Shown: positions 36,797-49,107, counted from the first letter of the stretch. The stretch: 64,000 nt of DNA from a bacterium (GCA_004298675.1 SCRI01000064.1:6539-70538), one strand, 5' to 3'. The notes: generated by a model from the letters alone, not told the origin. Translations and numbers: made by a program.

Positions 36797-36819
36797 TCAC
36801 GCAACGACCTGTTGCGTGA
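36797..36819 (-). other. Right-end hairpin of the TnpB element, overlapping the tnpB stop
   Basis: TCACGCAAC and GTTGCGTGA form a perfect 9-bp stem with a 5-nt loop. The stop codon of tnpB is the end of the second arm. In TnpB elements the guide RNA (omega-RNA) is cut from this region, with the guide taken from the flanking DNA just outside. Here the flank is alcohol dehydrogenase sequence. Confidence 0.6.
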
Positions 36820-38041
36820 GCCGAGTTCTCCCCGGCGCTAGCGCACTGCGCGGGTCATCGGAGTCGGCCACCGCCAGGCCCCTCGCCGCAGGCCGCAACT
36901 CGGCCCGTTTCAAGATCACCTTCGCCGCGTTGACGTCGGCGTTCTCAGCATGCTCGCAGACCACGCACAGGAACGCCGGTTGGCTGCGGCGATTCTCGCT
37001 CGCGACGTGTCCGCAACACGAGCACTCCTGCGAGCTATACTTGGGATCTACGAACACAACCGTTCTCGCAGCCTCTTCCGCTTTCGAGACGAGCATGTTC
37101 GCGAACTGGCTCCAGCCGGCATCGGCGATGGAGCGGTTGAGCCCGGACTTCGCCGCGACGTTGCGGCCAGGCTGCTCGACGGTGCCCCGTGCCGAGCGCA
37201 GCAGGTTCTTGACCGCCAGCCGCTCCAGCGCGATGCCGTCGTAGGCATTGACGAACGCACGCGAGAGTTGGTGGTGCCAGTCCCGGCGGCTCCAGCGCTG
37301 GCGGTCCTTGGCCCGCGCCAGATCCCGATACCGCCGACGCTGACGGACAGAGCGTCTCTTGCACCGTGCAATGGCCCGCTGCTTGCGGCGGACCGCGCTC
37401 GCCTGTCGACGCTCGATGCGCGCGTGGTCGTAGAGCGCCCCGTCGCTGCTCGCCACGAAAGCGGCGATCCCGCGATCTAGGCCAACCACCTTACCGGTAG
37501 GCGGCAGCGGTTGGGCTTCGCGCTCACATTCGAAGAGCGCATACCAGCGCCCGGCGCCACGCACGACCATCGCCCGGCCGTAGGGCAGAACCCGCCGGCC
37601 CTTGCGCAGCCGCACGCTCCCAACGCCGGGGACACGCACCTCGCACTGCTCTGCGTCGAAGACCAAGGCGCGGTCCCCGTGCGGGAACTCCAGGGTATCC
37701 CAACGTCGCCGGCTCTTGTAGCGCGGGTAGCCCGGTACCTCGCCGTGCTTCACCCGCCGAAAGAAGGCCTGAAAGGCCAACTCCAACCGGTGGAGCACGG
37801 CGTCCTCACACTCACGATACACCGCGGCGAGCCGGCCATCGAGACGATGGATCGGGCTCCGCAGTGCCGTGATCTCGGCGTACTGCTGCTTGGCACTGAT
37901 CCGGACGCCGCGCCGCCGGTATGCTTCACGACGCTCTTCGAGTAGCGCGTTATAGAGTTCGCAACAGACGTCGAGCATCCGCTCCAGCGCCTCGACTTGG
38001 CGACGCGTGGGGTAGAGTCTGACCCGCTCCATGCGCTTCAC
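36797..38041 (-). CDS. tnpB: TnpB, RNA-guided endonuclease of IS200/IS605 type
   Basis: About 414 residues from a GTG at 38039-38041 (ATG at 38032 also possible; a longer frame reaches 38095). All RuvC pieces are intact: VVGLDRGIAAFVASS (first Asp), DGIALERLAVKNLL (Glu) and HAENADVNAAKVI (last Asp). The zinc finger CSCCGHVASENRRSQPAFLCVVC has four cysteines. It is predicted to be an active omega-RNA-guided DNA nuclease. Its C terminus runs into the right-end hairpin, where the guide RNA is expected. Confidence 0.9.
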   Translation of the reverse strand: MKRMERVRLYPTRRQVEALERMLDVCCELYNALLEERREAYRRRGVRISAKQQYAEITALRSPIHRLDGRLAAVYRECEDAVLHRLELAFQAFFRRVKHGEVPGYPRYKSRRRWDTLEFPHGDRALVFDAEQCEVRVPGVGSVRLRKGRRVLPYGRAMVVRGAGRWYALFECEREAQPLPPTGKVVGLDRGIAAFVASSDGALYDHARIERRQASAVRRKQRAIARCKRRSVRQRRRYRDLARAKDRQRWSRRDWHHQLSRAFVNAYDGIALERLAVKNLLRSARGTVEQPGRNVAAKSGLNRSIADAGWSQFANMLVSKAEEAARTVVFVDPKYSSQECSCCGHVASENRRSQPAFLCVVCEHAENADVNAAKVILKRAELRPAARGLAVADSDDPRSALAPGRTRLTQQVVA

Positions 38042-38130
38042 GGGCCCAGCATAGCCGGCCAGTGTGCCAGCGTGTCGGCACACTGCCGGAGACAACCGGC
38101 GTGCTCGTCGTGGGTTTGGCCGCCGTGTGT

Positions 38131-38468: not shown

Positions 38469-38867
38469 ATGCGAACCGTCGGCGCCTGCGAGGCGAGAAC
38501 CCACTTTGGCCAACTACTCGCGTCGGTGGCCAAGGGCGAGGTCGTCCAGATCACTCGCCACGGCGAGCCCATCGCAGAGTTGCGGCCGTTAACGAAGCCG
38601 GAGCGCGGCTCGATCGCCATGAGATGGCTTCTCGCTAGTACCGTGAGACTCGGTGGCTTGAACCTTCGAGACCTCGTTCGAGAGGGGCGCCGCTCCATCA
38701 AAGGCACTTACGTTGCTCCGCGTCCATGGCACTTGCAGCGATACGTAGAGGAACAAGTGTTCCGGTTCAACCCGCGCGAGGACAAAGTCGGTCCGCGTTT
38801 CGCTATTGTCACGAAGCGAGCCGATGGCAAGCTGCCGACATATAAGGCACTGATAAACAAAACGTGA
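38469..38867 (+). CDS. Chimeric ORF: Phd/YefM antitoxin fused to the C-terminal end of an IS1595 (ISXO2-like) transposase
   Basis: 132 residues. Residues 1-74 are a Phd/YefM antitoxin: TVGACEARTHFGQLLASVAKGE and ITRHGEPIAELRPL, ending LRDLVREGRR. From about residue 75 the sequence becomes IKGTYVAPRPWHLQRYVEEQVFRFNPRE and ADGKLPTYKALI, the tail of an ISXO2-like DDE transposase. The catalytic transposase residues are absent. The usual downstream toxin gene is also missing. An insertion followed by deletion probably joined them. The product may still bind its operator. Confidence 0.75.
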   Translation: MRTVGACEARTHFGQLLASVAKGEVVQITRHGEPIAELRPLTKPERGSIAMRWLLASTVRLGGLNLRDLVREGRRSIKGTYVAPRPWHLQRYVEEQVFRFNPREDKVGPRFAIVTKRADGKLPTYKALINKT

Positions 38868-39912: not shown

Positions 39913-41355
39913 TTACTGATAGTCGACTTCCGTTCGCAGGCCGTCCATCATGTGAATGTCGTTATGGCAGTGGAGCAGCCACCGCCCCGGCGGTGAGTCT
40001 GCGCGGAAGCGCCAGGTCATCGTCCCGCCGTTGGGATCGACGAGCGCGGTATCCTTCGGCAGCGGGTAGCGCAGCGCGCGCCCGTTCGTCTCGACAACGT
40101 CGAAGACGTGACCGTGCAGGTGCATCGGGTGGTGCATATCCGTCTTGTTGGTGAAGCGAACCTCGACGCGATCGCCGCGCCGCACGACGATCTTCTCCGT
40201 GTGCGGCCACACCTTCCCATTCATCGTCCAACGGTCCGAGCCCCATGCGCCTCCGCCCAGCACGTACGCTTGCCGTACGCCGGCAGGCTGCGCGCGCGGC
40301 TGCGTGCCAACGGCCTGCGCCGCACCGGCCAGCTCGTAGGTGAAGTAGCGCACGCCCACCAGCGTCTGCGCCACCCCTAGCGGCGTCGCGTTCTCCATGC
40401 CCGGGGTGTGCAGGACGAGCGCCTGCTGGAACGCTGTCGGCGCCTCCGAAAGGCCCTGCAGCAGCCACGCGCCGGGCTTGCTCACTTCGAACCAGGCGTC
40501 GTAGCGCTCCGCCACGCCGACGCGCAGCGCCTCCACCTCGACCGGCTGCGGCAGCGGATTGCCGTCGCTATGCGTCACGCGCAGCGTGTGCCCCGCCAAA
40601 CGCACGTAGCGCGTCTGCGTGGCGTTGGCGTTGAGGATGCGCAGACGGATCCTCTGCCCAACCCGCACCTCGATCGGCTGTGTCTTAGGGTAGCAGGCGC
40701 CGTTGATACAGTGTGCCTGGTAAGCCACTTCGTCACCCATTTTGCCGTCGGGGGCCATCGCCGCCAACTCGGGCGAGCCGAACGGATCGACCATCGGCGC
40801 CGTGCTAGTGCCCTTCATCGCGGAGTCGATCGACGCCGGCACGGGGACGTCGTGGAAGACGAGCGCGATATCCTGATCGGCCGGCTCGTCGTGCGGATCT
40901 TCGACGACGATCATCCCGAAGAGCCCTGCCAGCGCCTGAGGAAAGACGTGGCTGTGATACCAGCGCGTCCCCGCTGGAGCGGGCGTGAATTCGTAGAGGA
41001 ACTCCGCGCCGTCCGGCACGGGGGCTTGCGTGACGTCGGCTACGCCGTCCATGGCGTTGGGCAGAATCATGCCGTGCCAGTGCACCGTGCTGGGGCCACC
41101 GGAACGATTCACGTAACGCACGCGCAGCCGCTGGCCTTGGCGCACACGCAAGACCGGTCCGGGGATCGTCCCGTTGAAGGCAAGGCCGCGATACGACACA
41201 CCGGGGAACGGCGCGAAGAGCAGTGGCGCGGAGGTCAGCGTCACGTCCAGCGTTTCAGCGCCGGCGGCGCGCGCGGTCAGCGGGCGCAGCGCCGCCGCGC
41301 TCAACGCCGTCGTGGTCAATGCGCCACCGGCTGCAAGAAACGCGGCGCGGCGCAC
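39913..41355 (-). CDS. Multicopper oxidase (laccase/CopA-like), exported
   Basis: 480 residues. The GTG start follows AAGGAGG. The signal MRRAAFLAAGGALTTTALSAAA has a twin-arginine and AxA-type cleavage. All four copper motifs are present: STVHWHGMI, GTRWYHSHVFPQ, HPMHLHGHVF and WLLHCHNDIHMMDGL, giving T1 and T2/T3 sites. It oxidises an electron donor and reduces oxygen to water in the periplasm or outside. It is last in an operon with a cytochrome c and a cytochrome-porin, so it could be the terminal oxidase of that chain. Confidence 0.88.
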   Translation of the reverse strand: MRRAAFLAAGGALTTTALSAAALRPLTARAAGAETLDVTLTSAPLLFAPFPGVSYRGLAFNGTIPGPVLRVRQGQRLRVRYVNRSGGPSTVHWHGMILPNAMDGVADVTQAPVPDGAEFLYEFTPAPAGTRWYHSHVFPQALAGLFGMIVVEDPHDEPADQDIALVFHDVPVPASIDSAMKGTSTAPMVDPFGSPELAAMAPDGKMGDEVAYQAHCINGACYPKTQPIEVRVGQRIRLRILNANATQTRYVRLAGHTLRVTHSDGNPLPQPVEVEALRVGVAERYDAWFEVSKPGAWLLQGLSEAPTAFQQALVLHTPGMENATPLGVAQTLVGVRYFTYELAGAAQAVGTQPRAQPAGVRQAYVLGGGAWGSDRWTMNGKVWPHTEKIVVRRGDRVEVRFTNKTDMHHPMHLHGHVFDVVETNGRALRYPLPKDTALVDPNGGTMTWRFRADSPPGRWLLHCHNDIHMMDGLRTEVDYQ

Positions 41356-41356
41356 G

Positions 41357-41971
41357 CTAGCCTCCTTGCGCCATGACCGGAACGTCGATCTCTTGGCCGC
41401 CGGAGTAGCGTACTTTCACGATCCACGGACCGCCCATGGAGAAGTGTACCTTCGCCGCGAGCACGCGGGGGTCGTCCGTCTTCTTCAGCGGAACCCAGGC
41501 GCTACCGTGGCCACTCGTGCCCATCTCCATGTAGGCCTGCACCGCAACGTCCGCGGGCGGCGTGCCGGAGAAGGTCGCGAGCACCGTCGCCTCGTCGCTG
41601 GGCTCGGGCGGCACGATCTTGACCACCGGCTTGCCCGTGCCGCCATCGAGCCCCGAAAGGAAGGCGACGAGATCGGCCACTTGCGCTCTGCTGAAACCGA
41701 AGTCGGGCATCGGCGGCTTGGGATGCTCGATCGCGGCGCCGATCTGATCGGGAGTCAGGCGTTTCTCGATGCCGACCAGCTTGGGCCCGATTCCGCCGCT
41801 GAAGCCGGCGCCGTGGCAGCCTTCGCAGCCCGACGACTGCGCGATCTTGGCTCCGGCCGAGGCATCACCATTGGCGTACGGGTCGGCGGCGGCGTGGGCG
41901 TGCGCAACGGCAAGCGCGAGAACGGCTAAGACCGCGAACACGCCCAAGAGCCAGCGAAATCCTCGTTGCAC
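41357..41971 (-). CDS. Monoheme cytochrome c with C-terminal beta domain
   Basis: About 204 residues from the GTG at 41969-41971; an ATG at 42001 would overlap the upstream gene. A signal helix (LLGVFAVLAVLALAVAHAHA) precedes a small cytochrome c: heme motif CEGCH in SSGCEGCHGAGFSGG, and distal Met in PKPPMPDFGFS. A C-terminal beta-rich domain follows (VLATFSGTPPADVAVQAYMEM...GGPWIVKVRYSGG), resembling FixH/YtkA-type folds. It is 1 nt from the multicopper oxidase gene and is a likely electron shuttle to it. Confidence 0.82.
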   Translation of the reverse strand: MQRGFRWLLGVFAVLAVLALAVAHAHAAADPYANGDASAGAKIAQSSGCEGCHGAGFSGGIGPKLVGIEKRLTPDQIGAAIEHPKPPMPDFGFSRAQVADLVAFLSGLDGGTGKPVVKIVPPEPSDEATVLATFSGTPPADVAVQAYMEMGTSGHGSAWVPLKKTDDPRVLAAKVHFSMGGPWIVKVRYSGGQEIDVPVMAQGG

Positions 41972-41975
41972 GATC

Positions 41976-43205
41976 CTACGATCCTTTCGACGTGGTGGCA
42001 TTGGGTGAAGCTACCCGGATGCCGTGTGGCCCATCATAGAGATAGCGCCGGCCCCGCAGCCACGGCCCAGCGTAACCGAGCAGCACACGGTATTGCGGCT
42101 GCATCCCGGGGCCGGCGAGCACTTCGCCCACGAGCTTGATATTCGGCGCCAGACTATGGTCGACGTCGAGGACGTACTGCCGGTTGAGCGTATCGCTCGA
42201 CGCCACGTCGTAGCGCACGAGCACGTGGTTGCGCCAGCCGAAGTCCCGCTGCAGCTCGATCATGAATCCGTTGAGCGAGACGCCGAACTCGTCGAGATCG
42301 GGACGGGCGTCATAGCCGTGATAGTACATCGTTTGAAGGTGCCACTTAGGGACCTGGTAGGCGTAGTAGACGCCTTCACGCGTAAACGCATCGCTGCCGG
42401 CAAACGTCCCCACCGGGCCCGCGCTGGCCGGTGCGACCGGCCGCGCCGAATAGAGTGGCGCAAAGCCGCGGATGCCGACCACTCCAAGCGTCCAGGGGAC
42501 CTCCATGCCGCCGTAGGAGACGTTGAGATCCAGCGCGCGCTGAGCGTCGGCGGGGTTGTAGTCGAGCGCGCTTTGCAGCGGCCCGCTGCCGGTGAGATAT
42601 GAGGCGTTGTACATAAACTCGTTCGACATCCCGTTGAAGGCAACGCCCCAGCGGGCGTCATTCGGGTTGAACGTATTCTGCCCCGTGGTCTGCGTGGCCA
42701 GCAGGTAGCTTCCTAGCGACCATGCATGGGCGGGCATGAACGGGAAGGGCGTGTGAAACTTCCCCACCTGCAGCGAATTGACGCCGTGCAGCAGCCCGTT
42801 CCACGACAGCCACAACTGATCCGTGTCGCCGATCTGGCCACCGTCGATCACGTGCTGCTCGTTGTAAAAGGTCAAATTCTTCCCAGCGAATCCGCCCGTG
42901 AGCAGCGAGAGATCGGAGACTTGCGTCTGCCCCGGCGTGCTCTGGTTGGCCAAATACGACTGCACGAGCACGCGCACCGACGTCGGCAAAGCTTGACGCT
43001 GCAAGTGCCAGTTGAGAACCTGGAAATTCGACATCATGACCATCATGCCGTAGCGGGTCATGGCCGGGTAGACGGTGTGGCAGGTCTCGCACGAGATACC
43101 CTGTCCGTTGGCAAAAACCGGAATCGCCTGGGCCATGCGCGGCAGGCCGAGCAGGGCGGCCACAAAGGCCGTCGTGCGCAGCGCACGCGCAAGCTGGATT
43201 GGCAT
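41976..43205 (-). CDS. Cyc2-like monoheme cytochrome-porin fusion
   Basis: 409 residues from the ATG at 43203-43205, with GGGGAG upstream. A signal peptide (ending MAQA) is followed at once by IPVFANGQGISCETCHTVYPAMTRYGM. This is one CxxCH in the N-terminal pattern of Cyc2-type iron oxidases. The remaining roughly 350 residues are alternating beta sequence with many Tyr/Trp/Gly, as in outer-membrane barrels. Cyc2 proteins are heme-plus-porin proteins that oxidise Fe(II) at the cell surface. Membership is inferred from architecture; related barrels of unknown function share the heme pattern. Confidence 0.7.
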   Translation of the reverse strand: MPIQLARALRTTAFVAALLGLPRMAQAIPVFANGQGISCETCHTVYPAMTRYGMMVMMSNFQVLNWHLQRQALPTSVRVLVQSYLANQSTPGQTQVSDLSLLTGGFAGKNLTFYNEQHVIDGGQIGDTDQLWLSWNGLLHGVNSLQVGKFHTPFPFMPAHAWSLGSYLLATQTTGQNTFNPNDARWGVAFNGMSNEFMYNASYLTGSGPLQSALDYNPADAQRALDLNVSYGGMEVPWTLGVVGIRGFAPLYSARPVAPASAGPVGTFAGSDAFTREGVYYAYQVPKWHLQTMYYHGYDARPDLDEFGVSLNGFMIELQRDFGWRNHVLVRYDVASSDTLNRQYVLDVDHSLAPNIKLVGEVLAGPGMQPQYRVLLGYAGPWLRGRRYLYDGPHGIRVASPNATTSKGS

Positions 43206-43245
43206 GGAGCATACTCCCCGGGAGCGGCGTAGGTGTGTTGCTGAA

Positions 43246-43797
43246 CTACGCTGCCATTGGAGGAGGACGCTTGAAGCGGCGCACACCGGCACATTCGGTC
43301 AGTAGACGCGCGCGCGTGACCGCGGAGCGCGGAACCGGCACGCATGCGGCGCCCGCGCACCGCGCGAGATAACGCGCACCGAGAGCCTCCGCGCAGCGCT
43401 CCACGAGACCAAAGAGGAGCGTGAGGGCGGTCGCCAGCAGGAGCGCGACGAGCGCTTGAACCACGCAGCCCACGTAATCGGCGCGATTGTGCTCGAACGC
43501 TTCGAGCAAGATGAAGCCGCCGACTTGCAGCGCCCCGAGCTTGTACCACACGCGCCAGAGCGCCTGGGCCGGCCACGCCAGCGGCAGTTCCCTGCCCCGG
43601 CCGAGCATCACGCAGGCGACGTACAACACGGCGCCGCCGATCAAGAGTGCGAGCACCGCATCCAGAGCCGGGACGAAGTACGCGTGCCGCCCATCGGTCA
43701 GCGCACGATGCTCGACGACATACGAAACCGCATGCCCGAGCAGCGTACCGCTCGCCGCTACGACCACAAACCAAGCGAGCCGGAGGATCGCCGTCAT
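43246..43797 (-). CDS. Integral membrane protein, first gene of the cytochrome operon
   Basis: 183 residues with four hydrophobic helices: LAWFVVVAASGTLLGHAVSYV, DAVLALLIGGAVLYVACVML, LWRVWYKLGALQVGGFILLEAF and VVQALVALLLATALTLLFGLVERC. Several cysteines follow in a basic C-terminal tail. No domain is recognised. It is 40 bp upstream of the cytochrome-porin and on the same strand. Possible roles are assembly or quinone contact; neither is shown. Confidence 0.65.
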   Translation of the reverse strand: MTAILRLAWFVVVAASGTLLGHAVSYVVEHRALTDGRHAYFVPALDAVLALLIGGAVLYVACVMLGRGRELPLAWPAQALWRVWYKLGALQVGGFILLEAFEHNRADYVGCVVQALVALLLATALTLLFGLVERCAEALGARYLARCAGAACVPVPRSAVTRARLLTECAGVRRFKRPPPMAA

Positions 43798-43944: not shown

Positions 43945-44814
43945 ATGCATAATCCCAATGTCCCCGAGACGCTGCACGGCTGGAGCATCCTGCACCGCTT
44001 GTATACCTTCGACCGGCGAGGCTGGGCGGCGCTCGCGCCAGAGCGGCAGAGCGCGATTCAGAGCGAGACGTTGCGCGCCCTCGGGCAGTTGGAGGGCGGC
44101 GAGCGGCACGATCTCGCGCTGTGTCAGGTGCTCGGCGGCAAGGGCGATCTGATGTTCATCCACTACGCACGGGACTTCGAAGCCCTGGCGGAGGCGGAGA
44201 TGATCTTCAGCGGGCTGGAGCTCAACGACTACCTGCAGCCGCGCGATTCGTACGTTTCCGTGCTGGAAGTTGGCCGCCATCGCGCCACCGCGCGCATCCA
44301 CGAGGAGTTGCACGACCGCGGGCTGGAGGCAAACTCGGCCGAATGGATCGGCGCCTTCGATCAGGCGCTGGCCGAGGAAGAGGCCACGGTTTCAGCACGG
44401 CTGTGGGCGCAGATCCCACGCCGGCGCTTCTGGTGCTTCTACCCGATGAGCAAGAAGCGTGACGACACGTGGAATTGGTACGCGCTACCGTTCGAAGAGC
44501 GTTGCCGGCTGATGGCGGCGCACGGCGCCGGCGCGAAGGCCTATCACGGCCTGGCCACCCAGGTGATCTCCAGCTCCACCGGCTTCGACGACTGGGAGTG
44601 GGGCGTCGACCTCTTCTCCGACGATCCGATCGTGCTCAAGAAGCTCATCTACGAGCTGCGCTTCGACGAAGTGAGCTCGCACTACGCGGAGTTCGGATCG
44701 TTCATGACCGGCCTGCGCTTCTCGCCGGCGCAGTTGCCGGAGTTTCTATCCGGGCGCGCGGTGCCGCGTCTGCTCGAGGTCAAGGAGCCCGAACTGGCGG
44801 CAGCGGCGCGCTAG
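43945..44814 (+). CDS. hemQ: Coproheme decarboxylase HemQ (chlorite dismutase family)
   Basis: 289 residues. The conserved HemQ core is present: RRFWCFYPMSKKRDDTWNWYALPFEERCRLMAAHG. It supplies the catalytic Tyr (YPMSK) and the proximal His (LMAAHG). It continues ISSSTGFDDWEWGVDLFSDDP and YELRFDEVSSHYAEFGSF. The enzyme decarboxylates coproheme to protoheme in the coproporphyrin-dependent pathway. GAGGA precedes the ATG. It opens the mevalonate operon and shares a G with the next start (TAGTG). Confidence 0.88.
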   Translation: MHNPNVPETLHGWSILHRLYTFDRRGWAALAPERQSAIQSETLRALGQLEGGERHDLALCQVLGGKGDLMFIHYARDFEALAEAEMIFSGLELNDYLQPRDSYVSVLEVGRHRATARIHEELHDRGLEANSAEWIGAFDQALAEEEATVSARLWAQIPRRRFWCFYPMSKKRDDTWNWYALPFEERCRLMAAHGAGAKAYHGLATQVISSSTGFDDWEWGVDLFSDDPIVLKKLIYELRFDEVSSHYAEFGSFMTGLRFSPAQLPEFLSGRAVPRLLEVKEPELAAAAR

Positions 44815-46839: not shown

Positions 46840-49107
46840 ATGAACCTGTCGAGATTGCCGGGTTTCTATAAGCTGCCGGTACCCGAGCGCCTCAACCTCA
46901 TGCGCGAACGCGGTATTCTTTCACACGAGGAGTTCGAGACGCTGTCGTGCGGCGCACACGTGCTGACGGTCGCGCGCGCGGACAAAATCATCGAGAACGT
47001 GATCGGCGTGATGGCGCTGCCGCTCGGTCTCGGCCTCAATTTCCTGGTCAACGGTAAGGATTACGTGGTGCCGCTGGTGGTCGAGGAACCCTCGATCGTG
47101 GCCGCGCTGTCCTCGGCCGCCAAACTCATTCGCGCCGCCGACGGCTTCACCACCCGCTCGACCGAATCGATCTTGATCGGCCAGGTTCAGATCGTCGACG
47201 TCGACAACGCCACCGCCGCACGCGACGCCCTGCTCCAGCGCAAGCGCGAGCTACTCGACCTTGCCAACAGCCTGCATCCCCGCATGGTGGCCCGGGGCGG
47301 CGGCGCCAGAGACGTAGAGGTGCACCTCTACCCCGCGGCCGACGGCCGCCCCACGATGGTGGTGCTGCATCTGCTGGTCGACACGTGCGACGCCATGGGC
47401 GCCAACATGGTCAATACGATGTGCGAAGGCGTCGCGCCGCTGGTGGAGAGGATCACCGGCGGCAAAGTGCTGCTGCGCATTCTCTCCAACCTCACCGACC
47501 GTGCCCTGGTCTGGGCCAACGTCGTGATCCCGGCCAAATTGCTGGCGGGTAAACGCAAGGATGGCGAACAGGTGCGCGACGGCATCATCCTCGCCAACGC
47601 CCTGGCCGAGGTCGATCCGTACCGCGCCGCCACGCACAACAAGGGCATCATGAACGGCGTGGACGCCGTGGCGCTGGCGACCGGTAACGACTGGCGCGCC
47701 TTGGAGGCCGCGGCACACGCGTACGCCGCGCGCGGCGAGCACTACACCTCGCTGACGCGCTGGTACAAGAACGATCAGGGCAGCCTGGTCGGCGAGATCG
47801 AGATACCGATAAAGGTCGGCACGGTGGGCGGCAACCTACAATCCAACGCCACCGTCGCCATGAACCATCACCTGCTGAAGGTATCCTCGGCACGCGAGCT
47901 GGCCGAGATCATGGGCGCGGTGGGCCTGGCGCAGAACTTCGCGGCACTGCATGCGCTGGCCACCGACGGCATCCAGCAAGGCCACATGACGCTGCACGCG
48001 CGTGGCGTCGCGGTCAGCGCGGGCGCGACACCGGAGATCTTCGAAACGGTGGTGGAGCGCCTGCTCGACTGCGGCGAGATCAAGGTTTGGAAGGCCAAGG
48101 AGATCATCGCCGAGCTCAAGGGCCACGCCACCTCCAAAGTCAAGCGGCTCCAGACCGACGCGTACGGCCACGCGGCGGTCGAGACGGACGGCTACTCGAT
48201 CGGTTACGGTAAGGTGATCCTACTCGGCGAGCATGCGGTGGTGTACGGCCGCCACGCGATCGCGGCGCCGGTCGCGATGGCCGTGCGCGCCCGCGCCGAG
48301 GACTCGAAGGACGGCACGCAACTGATAATCCCGAGCTGGGGTGTGGAGCAGCGCCTGAGGTCGGGCACGCGACACCCCGGCTCCCTGCTGCAGTCGCTCG
48401 AATTGATTTTGCAGAGACTCGACCTCGCCGGGCGTCCGCTGCGCGTGCAAGTCCATCCCAGCGTTCCGCGCGCCAACGGGCTGGGTTGCTCAGCCGCGCT
48501 CGCCGTGGCCGTCATTCGCGCCTTGAACCAGCATTGCGCCTTGAACCTCACCGATCAACAGGTCTGCGCGCTGGCGTACGAGTGCGAGCGCGTGGCGCAC
48601 GGCACGCCTTCCGGCATCGACAACACGGTGGCAACGTACGGCCGGCCGCTGCTGTACCGGCGCGGAGAGCCGCCGCTGATCGAACCGCTGCACCTTGCCG
48701 GGCCGCTGCCGCTGGTGATCGGCTTGTCCGGCATCGAGAGCTTGACGGCACGGACCGTGGGGCGCGTGCGCGAGGCGTGGCAGCAGCATACACGACGCTA
48801 CGAGCGCATCTTCGACGACATCGACGCGCTCGCGCTGCAGGGAGTCAAAGCCCTGGAAGCGTGGGACCTGCATAAGTTGGGCCAGTCGATGAATACCTGC
48901 CAACGCCGCTTACGGGCTCTGGGAGTCTCGAGCTGCGAGCTGGAGGTGATGATCGAGGTTGCCTGCGCCAACGGCGCGTTGGGCGCCAAGCTCACCGGCG
49001 GCGGCGGCGGCGGTGCGATGATCGCACTCTGCCCGGACGATCCCGGTAAGGTGGTGCGGGCACTGCAGGAGGCCGGATTCCAAGCGCTGGAGGCAAGCGT
49101 TGGCTGA
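46840..49107 (+). CDS. Fused class II HMG-CoA reductase and mevalonate kinase
   Basis: 755 residues in one frame. Residues 1 to about 430 are class II HMG-CoA reductase with the catalytic residues intact: Glu in ENVIGVMALPLGLG, Lys in THNKGIMNG, Asp in GNDWRALEA and His in QQGHMTLHARG. From about residue 450 a mevalonate kinase follows: YGKVILLGEHAVVYG, ANGLGCSAALAVAVI (Cys in place of the usual Ser), GTPSGIDNTVATYG and KLTGGGGGGAMIAL. The two activities would run in succession from HMG-CoA to phosphomevalonate. HMG-CoA synthase is not in this window. Confidence 0.88.
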   Translation: MNLSRLPGFYKLPVPERLNLMRERGILSHEEFETLSCGAHVLTVARADKIIENVIGVMALPLGLGLNFLVNGKDYVVPLVVEEPSIVAALSSAAKLIRAADGFTTRSTESILIGQVQIVDVDNATAARDALLQRKRELLDLANSLHPRMVARGGGARDVEVHLYPAADGRPTMVVLHLLVDTCDAMGANMVNTMCEGVAPLVERITGGKVLLRILSNLTDRALVWANVVIPAKLLAGKRKDGEQVRDGIILANALAEVDPYRAATHNKGIMNGVDAVALATGNDWRALEAAAHAYAARGEHYTSLTRWYKNDQGSLVGEIEIPIKVGTVGGNLQSNATVAMNHHLLKVSSARELAEIMGAVGLAQNFAALHALATDGIQQGHMTLHARGVAVSAGATPEIFETVVERLLDCGEIKVWKAKEIIAELKGHATSKVKRLQTDAYGHAAVETDGYSIGYGKVILLGEHAVVYGRHAIAAPVAMAVRARAEDSKDGTQLIIPSWGVEQRLRSGTRHPGSLLQSLELILQRLDLAGRPLRVQVHPSVPRANGLGCSAALAVAVIRALNQHCALNLTDQQVCALAYECERVAHGTPSGIDNTVATYGRPLLYRRGEPPLIEPLHLAGPLPLVIGLSGIESLTARTVGRVREAWQQHTRRYERIFDDIDALALQGVKALEAWDLHKLGQSMNTCQRRLRALGVSSCELEVMIEVACANGALGAKLTGGGGGGAMIALCPDDPGKVVRALQEAGFQALEASVG

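Follow-up and report, generated by a model that had tools for sequence, protein, structure and literature searches.

A four-gene operon from an Eremiobacterota genome encodes a small membrane protein, an outer-membrane barrel with a monoheme plug related to the plug of Cyc2, an exported cytochrome c and a multicopper oxidase (MCO), a gene set conserved among uncultured soil and mine bacteria of this phylum. Read from its sequences, the operon would oxidise soluble Cu(I) or Fe(II) at the outer membrane and pass the electrons to the cytochrome c and then to the O2-reducing MCO, probably for the purpose of metal handling, an interpretation to which we give about an even chance. The features are listed below, with positions counted along the window, that is the whole 64,000 nucleotide stretch analysed.

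43246 to 43797, minus strand: gene 1, small integral membrane protein, 183 aa from ATG 43797 (translation, 16-ortholog alignment)
41976 to 43205, minus strand: gene 2, signal peptide, monoheme plug and 16-strand outer-membrane barrel, 409 aa (translation, AlphaFold, Foldseek)
43077 to 43091, minus strand: plug heme site CXXCH, reading CETCH, residues 39-43, preceded by AIPVFANGQGIS (sequence; invariant in alignment)
43032 to 43052, minus strand: YGMMVMM methionine cluster behind the heme, where Cyc2 has [FY]GRxFK (alignment)
42066 to 42983, minus strand: 16 predicted barrel strands, residues 75-380 (AlphaFold model)
41357 to 42001, minus strand: gene 3, exported class-I cytochrome c with C-terminal YtkA-like domain, 214 aa (Pfam/NCBIfam)
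41813 to 41827, minus strand: cytochrome c heme site CXXCH, reading CEGCH (sequence)
41411 to 41605, minus strand: YtkA-like domain, conserved MxMG and FxMGGPW (Pfam E 0.0023, below gathering score)
39913 to 41355, minus strand: gene 4, three-domain MCO with an N-terminal RR-containing signal, 480 aa (Pfam, alignment)
39946 to 39972, minus strand: type-1 copper motif HCHNDIHMM (alignment)

The four ORFs occupy 39913-43797 on the minus strand exactly as the first-pass annotation had placed them. Genes 1 and 2 are 38-40 bp apart, the barrel gene overlaps that of the cytochrome by 26 bp and the MCO starts at a GTG 1 bp past the cytochrome stop, and so a single transcript of genes 1-4 is likely; a scan of the operon for sigma-70-like promoters returned no site and was uninformative. 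Pfam recognises three Cu-oxidase domains in the MCO, the cytochrome c and, weakly, YtkA, and neither the barrel nor the membrane protein has a family match in Pfam or NCBIfam. A HemQ/chlorite-dismutase family gene (window 43945-44814, plus strand) is divergent from the operon.

The barrel gene probably begins at the ATG at 43205, which yields a signal peptide, judged by eye, and has GGGGAG upstream. The plug adjoins this signal peptide in the window protein, and the plug of every complete relative contains exactly one CXXCH. In AlphaFold the window barrel and a relative with the fused form (L006) are both modelled as 16 long strands preceded by a signal helix and a plug of poor resolution, and the L006 model has in addition three helices of the cytochrome and a sandwich of seven strands; confidence is low (mean pLDDT around 61, and below 50 in the plug) and the placement of heme and methionines in the models is not reliable. 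Searched with Foldseek and VIA-align, they match outer-membrane porins throughout, including OprO and OprP (VIA Z 22.4 for L006 against 4rjw and 2o4v, OprO and OprP), which are the templates used for the Cyc2 barrel (PMC8406198). With 16 strands and porin matches for both models, the prediction is thus of a barrel and not of the soluble fold that the first-pass annotation had raised as an alternative outcome. By sequence the window barrel matches no solved structure, and another solved-structure sequence search gave matches confined to the cytochrome part.

How far the protein is a Cyc2 depends on which of its parts is compared. Keffer et al. 2021 (PMC8406198) define Cyc2 by two motifs that flank the CXXCH, AXPXFAR[Q/K][T/Y] ahead of it and PXL behind. 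As in Cyc2/Cyt572 of Acidithiobacillus, Zetaproteobacteria and Leptospirillum, there is a signal peptide followed by a homologous plug with a single N-terminal CXXCH, a 16-strand OprO/OprP-like barrel (in models of low pLDDT), a length of about 400 aa (409 aa, where Cyc2 proteins have at least 365) and an adjoining c-type cytochrome gene, and so the Cyc2-type architecture proposed at first pass, an N-terminal monoheme plug on a 16-strand outer-membrane barrel, is upheld by the models. Membership of the Cyc2 family, in contrast, is not: the window reads AIPVFANGQ in place of AXPXFAR[QK][TY] and PAM in place of PXL (PXM in general, relatives having mostly PGM, with PGL in L023 and L025), the R at the motif position is absent in all 23 complete relatives, YGMMxMM replaces FGRxFK, the barrel sequence is dissimilar and in a clade of its own, relatives carry a C-terminal cytochrome c-YtkA fusion, and the neighbour is an MCO rather than coxBACD/rusticyanin. 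Profile comparison with Proteobacterial Cyc2 gave E 8e-10 across the first ~84 residues, and E 0.11 for the barrel alone, no detectable similarity, so that on sequence the plug is homologous to that of Cyc2 while the barrels would be related at most by fold. The comparators were Proteobacterial homologs from plasmids (L057-L062), reached via L051 and then a Caballeronia protein; several carry the motif (for example ALPAFARQTGLACVACHVSFPELTPFGRFFK in Caballeronia), and the A. ferrooxidans and Polymorphobacter plasmid proteins read FAAQT instead of the strict form. A tree sampling six Proteobacterial Cyc2 homologs, rather than published Cyc2 clusters 1-3 as such, splits them from all Eremiobacterota barrels by a very long branch and resolves the window barrel family as a clade with 99/99 support. 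The gene order cyc2-cyc1-cup-coxBACD-rus is likewise absent, no cox, cup or rus genes occurring within the operon or, among the relatives examined, next to it, and the first-pass contrast with the rus operon therefore holds.

The methionine cluster behind the heme is almost invariant. Over the nine residues from YG, 21 of the 24 members of the window family have four Met, two have five and one has three, and a second family of the same class (L031-L033) has a YGMMxMM-type cluster with four Met in all three, against 0-1 Met in the same stretch of Cyc2 and paralogs. Barrels that have no MCO neighbour read YGRY, FGRA or FGAA at this position. The cluster tracks the MCO, being confined to MCO-linked barrel families. 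Methionine clusters commonly bind Cu(I), and one or more of the plug methionines may be the axial ligand of the heme.

These comparisons bear on whether the operon supports Fe(II) oxidation for energy, with a divergent Cyc2 feeding cytochrome c and then heme-copper oxidases and the MCO acting as an accessory overflow oxidase. Homology of the plug to Cyc2 would suit such a scheme, as would the c-type cytochrome gene that the Proteobacterial plasmid Cyc2 homologs also precede and the seven COX1-family genes in the window's genome; acid mine drainage harbours Eremiobacterota, and a 2021 study reported, on the basis of BLAST and a tree, a Cyc2-like gene in one MAG of the group (PMC8357290). However, the defining Cyc2 motif is absent, with the strict form in just 2 of 148 phylum genomes and there in other genes, Met stands where FGRxFK has its R and K, the window's genome yielded no RuBisCO, and the invariant neighbour is the MCO and not coxBACD. 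We regard an iron-based energy metabolism as unlikely. The same genome holds four further heme barrels, two of which are preceded by small cupredoxins, one CuA-like (L047:5529-5933) and one plastocyanin-like (L050:5389-5859), a pairing reminiscent of Cyc2 with rusticyanin. A separate barrel family (L043-L046) has a FANGQG-type plug and, close to its C terminus, another CXXCH, which in L043 and L044 belongs to a cytochrome c domain; it has no MCO nearby.

Most relatives join barrel and cytochrome: in 21 of the 23 whose barrel is complete, as well as in L027, where it is truncated, the barrel and the cytochrome-YtkA form one polypeptide, the fused ORFs having about 570-640 aa and two CXXCH each; separate genes occur in the window, L022 and L024. 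A sequencing frameshift as the origin of the split in the window is ruled out, because L022 and L024, from close relatives, have a stop, an AAGGAGG Shine-Dalgarno, an ATG and a signal peptide between barrel and cytochrome, which mark the split as genuine, and the window cytochrome bears a signal peptide of a kind that the fused forms lack before their cytochrome. A Met-rich linker of MPGM type leads from barrel to cytochrome in five relatives (L014, L016, L017, L018 and L027). The YtkA-like domain of the window scores 19.0 bits against PF13115, under the gathering score of 25.9; of the 21 fused relatives 14 match the family, with E values of up to 1 and 6e-4 as the best, and in L006 it is modelled as the seven-strand sandwich. 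Bacillus YtkA-domain proteins support copper delivery to oxidases (PMC13344008). The domain is shared with the CtaK/YtkA and YcnJ copper proteins of Bacillus subtilis; unlike there, it is fused here to a cytochrome c and mostly also to a barrel. No description of a one-chain heme-barrel-cytochrome-YtkA architecture was found in the literature searched.

Conservation of the gene set argues against its being a chance neighbourhood. Searches for relatives covered mainly Eremiobacterota genomes, together with 72,556 plasmids in which tblastn with the window barrel found no match. The scan of the genome collection gave 24 relatives, those named being Eremiobacterota/Vulcanimicrobiota MAGs; the cytochrome comes after the barrel in 24 of 24 loci, and next is the MCO in every locus whose contig is long enough (that of L017 stops short of it), so that the order barrel-(cytochrome)-MCO first noticed in the window is kept throughout as far as the contigs extend. 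As identity to the window is 52-68% for the barrel and 54-78% for the MCO, an order kept over this distance is not expected by chance. Across the phylum 125 of 149 genomes hold some relative of the barrel-cytochrome profile, and about 29 of the 149 have a full barrel of the window family, 26 in one frame with the cytochrome and three as separate genes. In the second family (L031-L033) the barrel carries two cytochrome c domains in the same chain and its gene precedes that of a two-domain MCO, and L031 and L032 have a membrane protein ending in NRPPP upstream of the barrel. That different MCO types adjoin the same kind of barrel is the best evidence that barrel and MCO would function together.

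The association has been modular. A pair of cytochrome-YtkA and MCO is found without a barrel in L034-L040 and L042, at least eight genomes, and so the MCO would also have a role independent of the barrel. Quick trees put the cytochrome and MCO of the window's genus among these barrel-less pairs (SH-aLRT 99 and 97) and its barrel among the barrels of fused proteins. In L039, of the same genus, the upstream gene is 75-77% identical and is followed directly by cytochrome and MCO; between the same flanks there is no trace of the membrane protein or barrel, a natural empty site. On the trees and this empty site, the membrane protein and barrel act as a cassette that was either added to a core of cytochrome and MCO or lost from it. 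A history in which the separate genes arose only by fission of the fused gene is not favoured, given that the cytochrome and MCO of the genus group with the barrel-less pairs. Fusion, kept order, the second family and the L039 empty site together bear out the link of barrel to cytochrome c and MCO drawn at first pass.

Since cytochrome-MCO pairs occur without the barrel and heme barrels are in principle reversible, electrons might instead leave through the barrel to an extracellular acceptor such as Fe(III), with an independent copper or laccase role for the MCO. A plug with a single heme is suited to soluble donors, however, electrons are more likely to flow inward where an O2-using MCO is strictly adjacent, and the operon has no inner-membrane quinol-cytochrome gene, so an outward path seems very improbable to us beside the inward route to the MCO. 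The operon also differs from MtrCAB/MtoAB, in which a multiheme cytochrome sits within a 26-strand barrel, in having one heme per domain and 16 strands.

The MCO itself has complete copper ligands (HxH, HxH, HxxHxH and HCHxxxH), the eleven checked positions being invariant in 23 sequences, and its N-terminal signal contains RRxxF. At axial position 473 the window has Leu, as does L039 of the same genus, and the 22 aligned relatives have Met. In fungal laccases an axial Leu goes with a higher potential. Among solved structures the nearest to it are laccases and other MCOs. The closest NCBIfam model is copper_res_A, at 192.9 bits and so far under the curated cut-off of 478.95 for CopA/PcoA (TIGR01480). 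This closest model, the CopC and CopD near the cytochrome-MCO pair of L038 and the Met-rich linkers would accord with a copper resistance system like PcoAB/CopAB, in which the MCO would oxidise Cu(I), the YtkA-cytochrome assist and the barrel export or shield copper, the heme being regulatory or vestigial. There is a precedent in that He et al. 2017 proposed, on sequence grounds, that porin-MCO pairs (PcoAB) oxidise metals (PMC5566968), and an outer-membrane barrel encoded with a periplasmic CopA-like MCO is indeed common to both systems; the present operon would be analogous, except that the barrel carries a heme and a cytochrome stands between barrel and MCO. The low CopA score tells against resistance of this kind, as does a 16-strand barrel with an invariant heme site where PcoB has 10-12 strands and no heme, and invariant CXXCH in both domains, together with the added cytochrome c, argues for electron transfer. 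We therefore assign copper resistance as such a low probability. MofABC/OmpB, from bacteria oxidising Mn(II) and Fe, likewise partner an MCO with cytochrome c (PMC5566968), although the OmpB/MofA MCOs are extracellular or in the outer membrane and no heme barrel is fused to a cytochrome there. The operon is distinct from both Cyc2/rus and PcoAB, and combines known parts.

Gene 1 has 3-4 hydrophobic segments and, among 16 orthologs, invariant motifs (GH in the first TM, D-x-x-H, E..E and a C-terminal R(F)xRPPP), with no convincing Pfam family. It is upstream of the barrel in most loci and missing in the L014/L016/L017/L018 group. A TonB-dependent receptor on the same strand joins the operon in eight relatives, lying between membrane protein and barrel in L008 and L011 and downstream of the MCO, often behind a second membrane-protein gene, in L013, L015, L020, L026, L028 and L029. 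Members of the membrane-protein family pair with TonB receptors too (L028:5095-5673, L008:2-547 and L011:71-676), and as RPPP is kept in these copies the family may serve outer-membrane partners in general. Other metal genes nearby, besides those of L038, are ArsP_1 permeases in L026 and L031 (best NCBIfam models Cu/Zn efflux or SaoE, both below cut-off) and VIT1 in L031. Such copper and iron neighbours vary between loci, and the flanks of the window's own operon have no copper or iron neighbour genes. The context is at least as suggestive of copper or general metal handling as of iron lithotrophy.

In the mechanism favoured here, for which we infer the substrate, electron direction, O2 as acceptor and the roles of the YtkA-like domain and membrane protein, soluble Cu(I) or Fe(II) would enter the lumen of the 16-strand barrel and be oxidised at the single plug heme, held there by YGMMxMM. 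The electron would pass to the class-I cytochrome c, tethered at the periplasmic end of the barrel in most relatives and a separate exported protein in the window, and from it to the type-1 copper of the MCO, which would reduce O2 to water. The YtkA-like domain would bind copper and help to load or regulate the MCO, and the small membrane protein would support the outer-membrane partner. Oxidising and handling metal at the cell surface is likely to be the purpose rather than energy metabolism, because electrons ending on a periplasmic MCO, which is not proton-pumping, would bypass the proton-pumping oxidases and because of the copper-type domain and the TonB receptors; the latter, joined to the operon in eight relatives, suggest detoxification or acquisition. 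A more specific version, which we put forward tentatively and think rather doubtful as a whole, is that a Cyc2-related plug was adapted by the Met cluster to Cu(I) (or Fe(II)) within one chain spanning the outer membrane with its own periplasmic cytochrome c and copper-binding YtkA, electrons going directly to the MCO and TonB receptors helping to handle or import the metal.

Cyc2-like barrels serve as marker genes for iron oxidation, and here is a family of heme-plug barrels without the Cyc2 motif that is tied to an MCO and a copper-type domain, so Cyc2-like matches in Eremiobacterota need not mean iron lithotrophy. The one-chain form is compact enough for expression and would offer a direct route to the metal-selecting residues. 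Elsewhere in the window, 46840-49107 (plus strand) encodes a 755-aa fusion of HMG-CoA reductase and a mevalonate-kinase-like GHMP kinase beside a diphosphomevalonate-decarboxylase-like gene, 36797-38095 (minus strand) an IS605 OrfB/TnpB-type transposase with a Cas12f1-like TNB domain, and 38469-38867 (plus strand) an ORF whose N terminus is that of a Phd/YefM antitoxin and whose tail weakly matches an IS1595 transposase.
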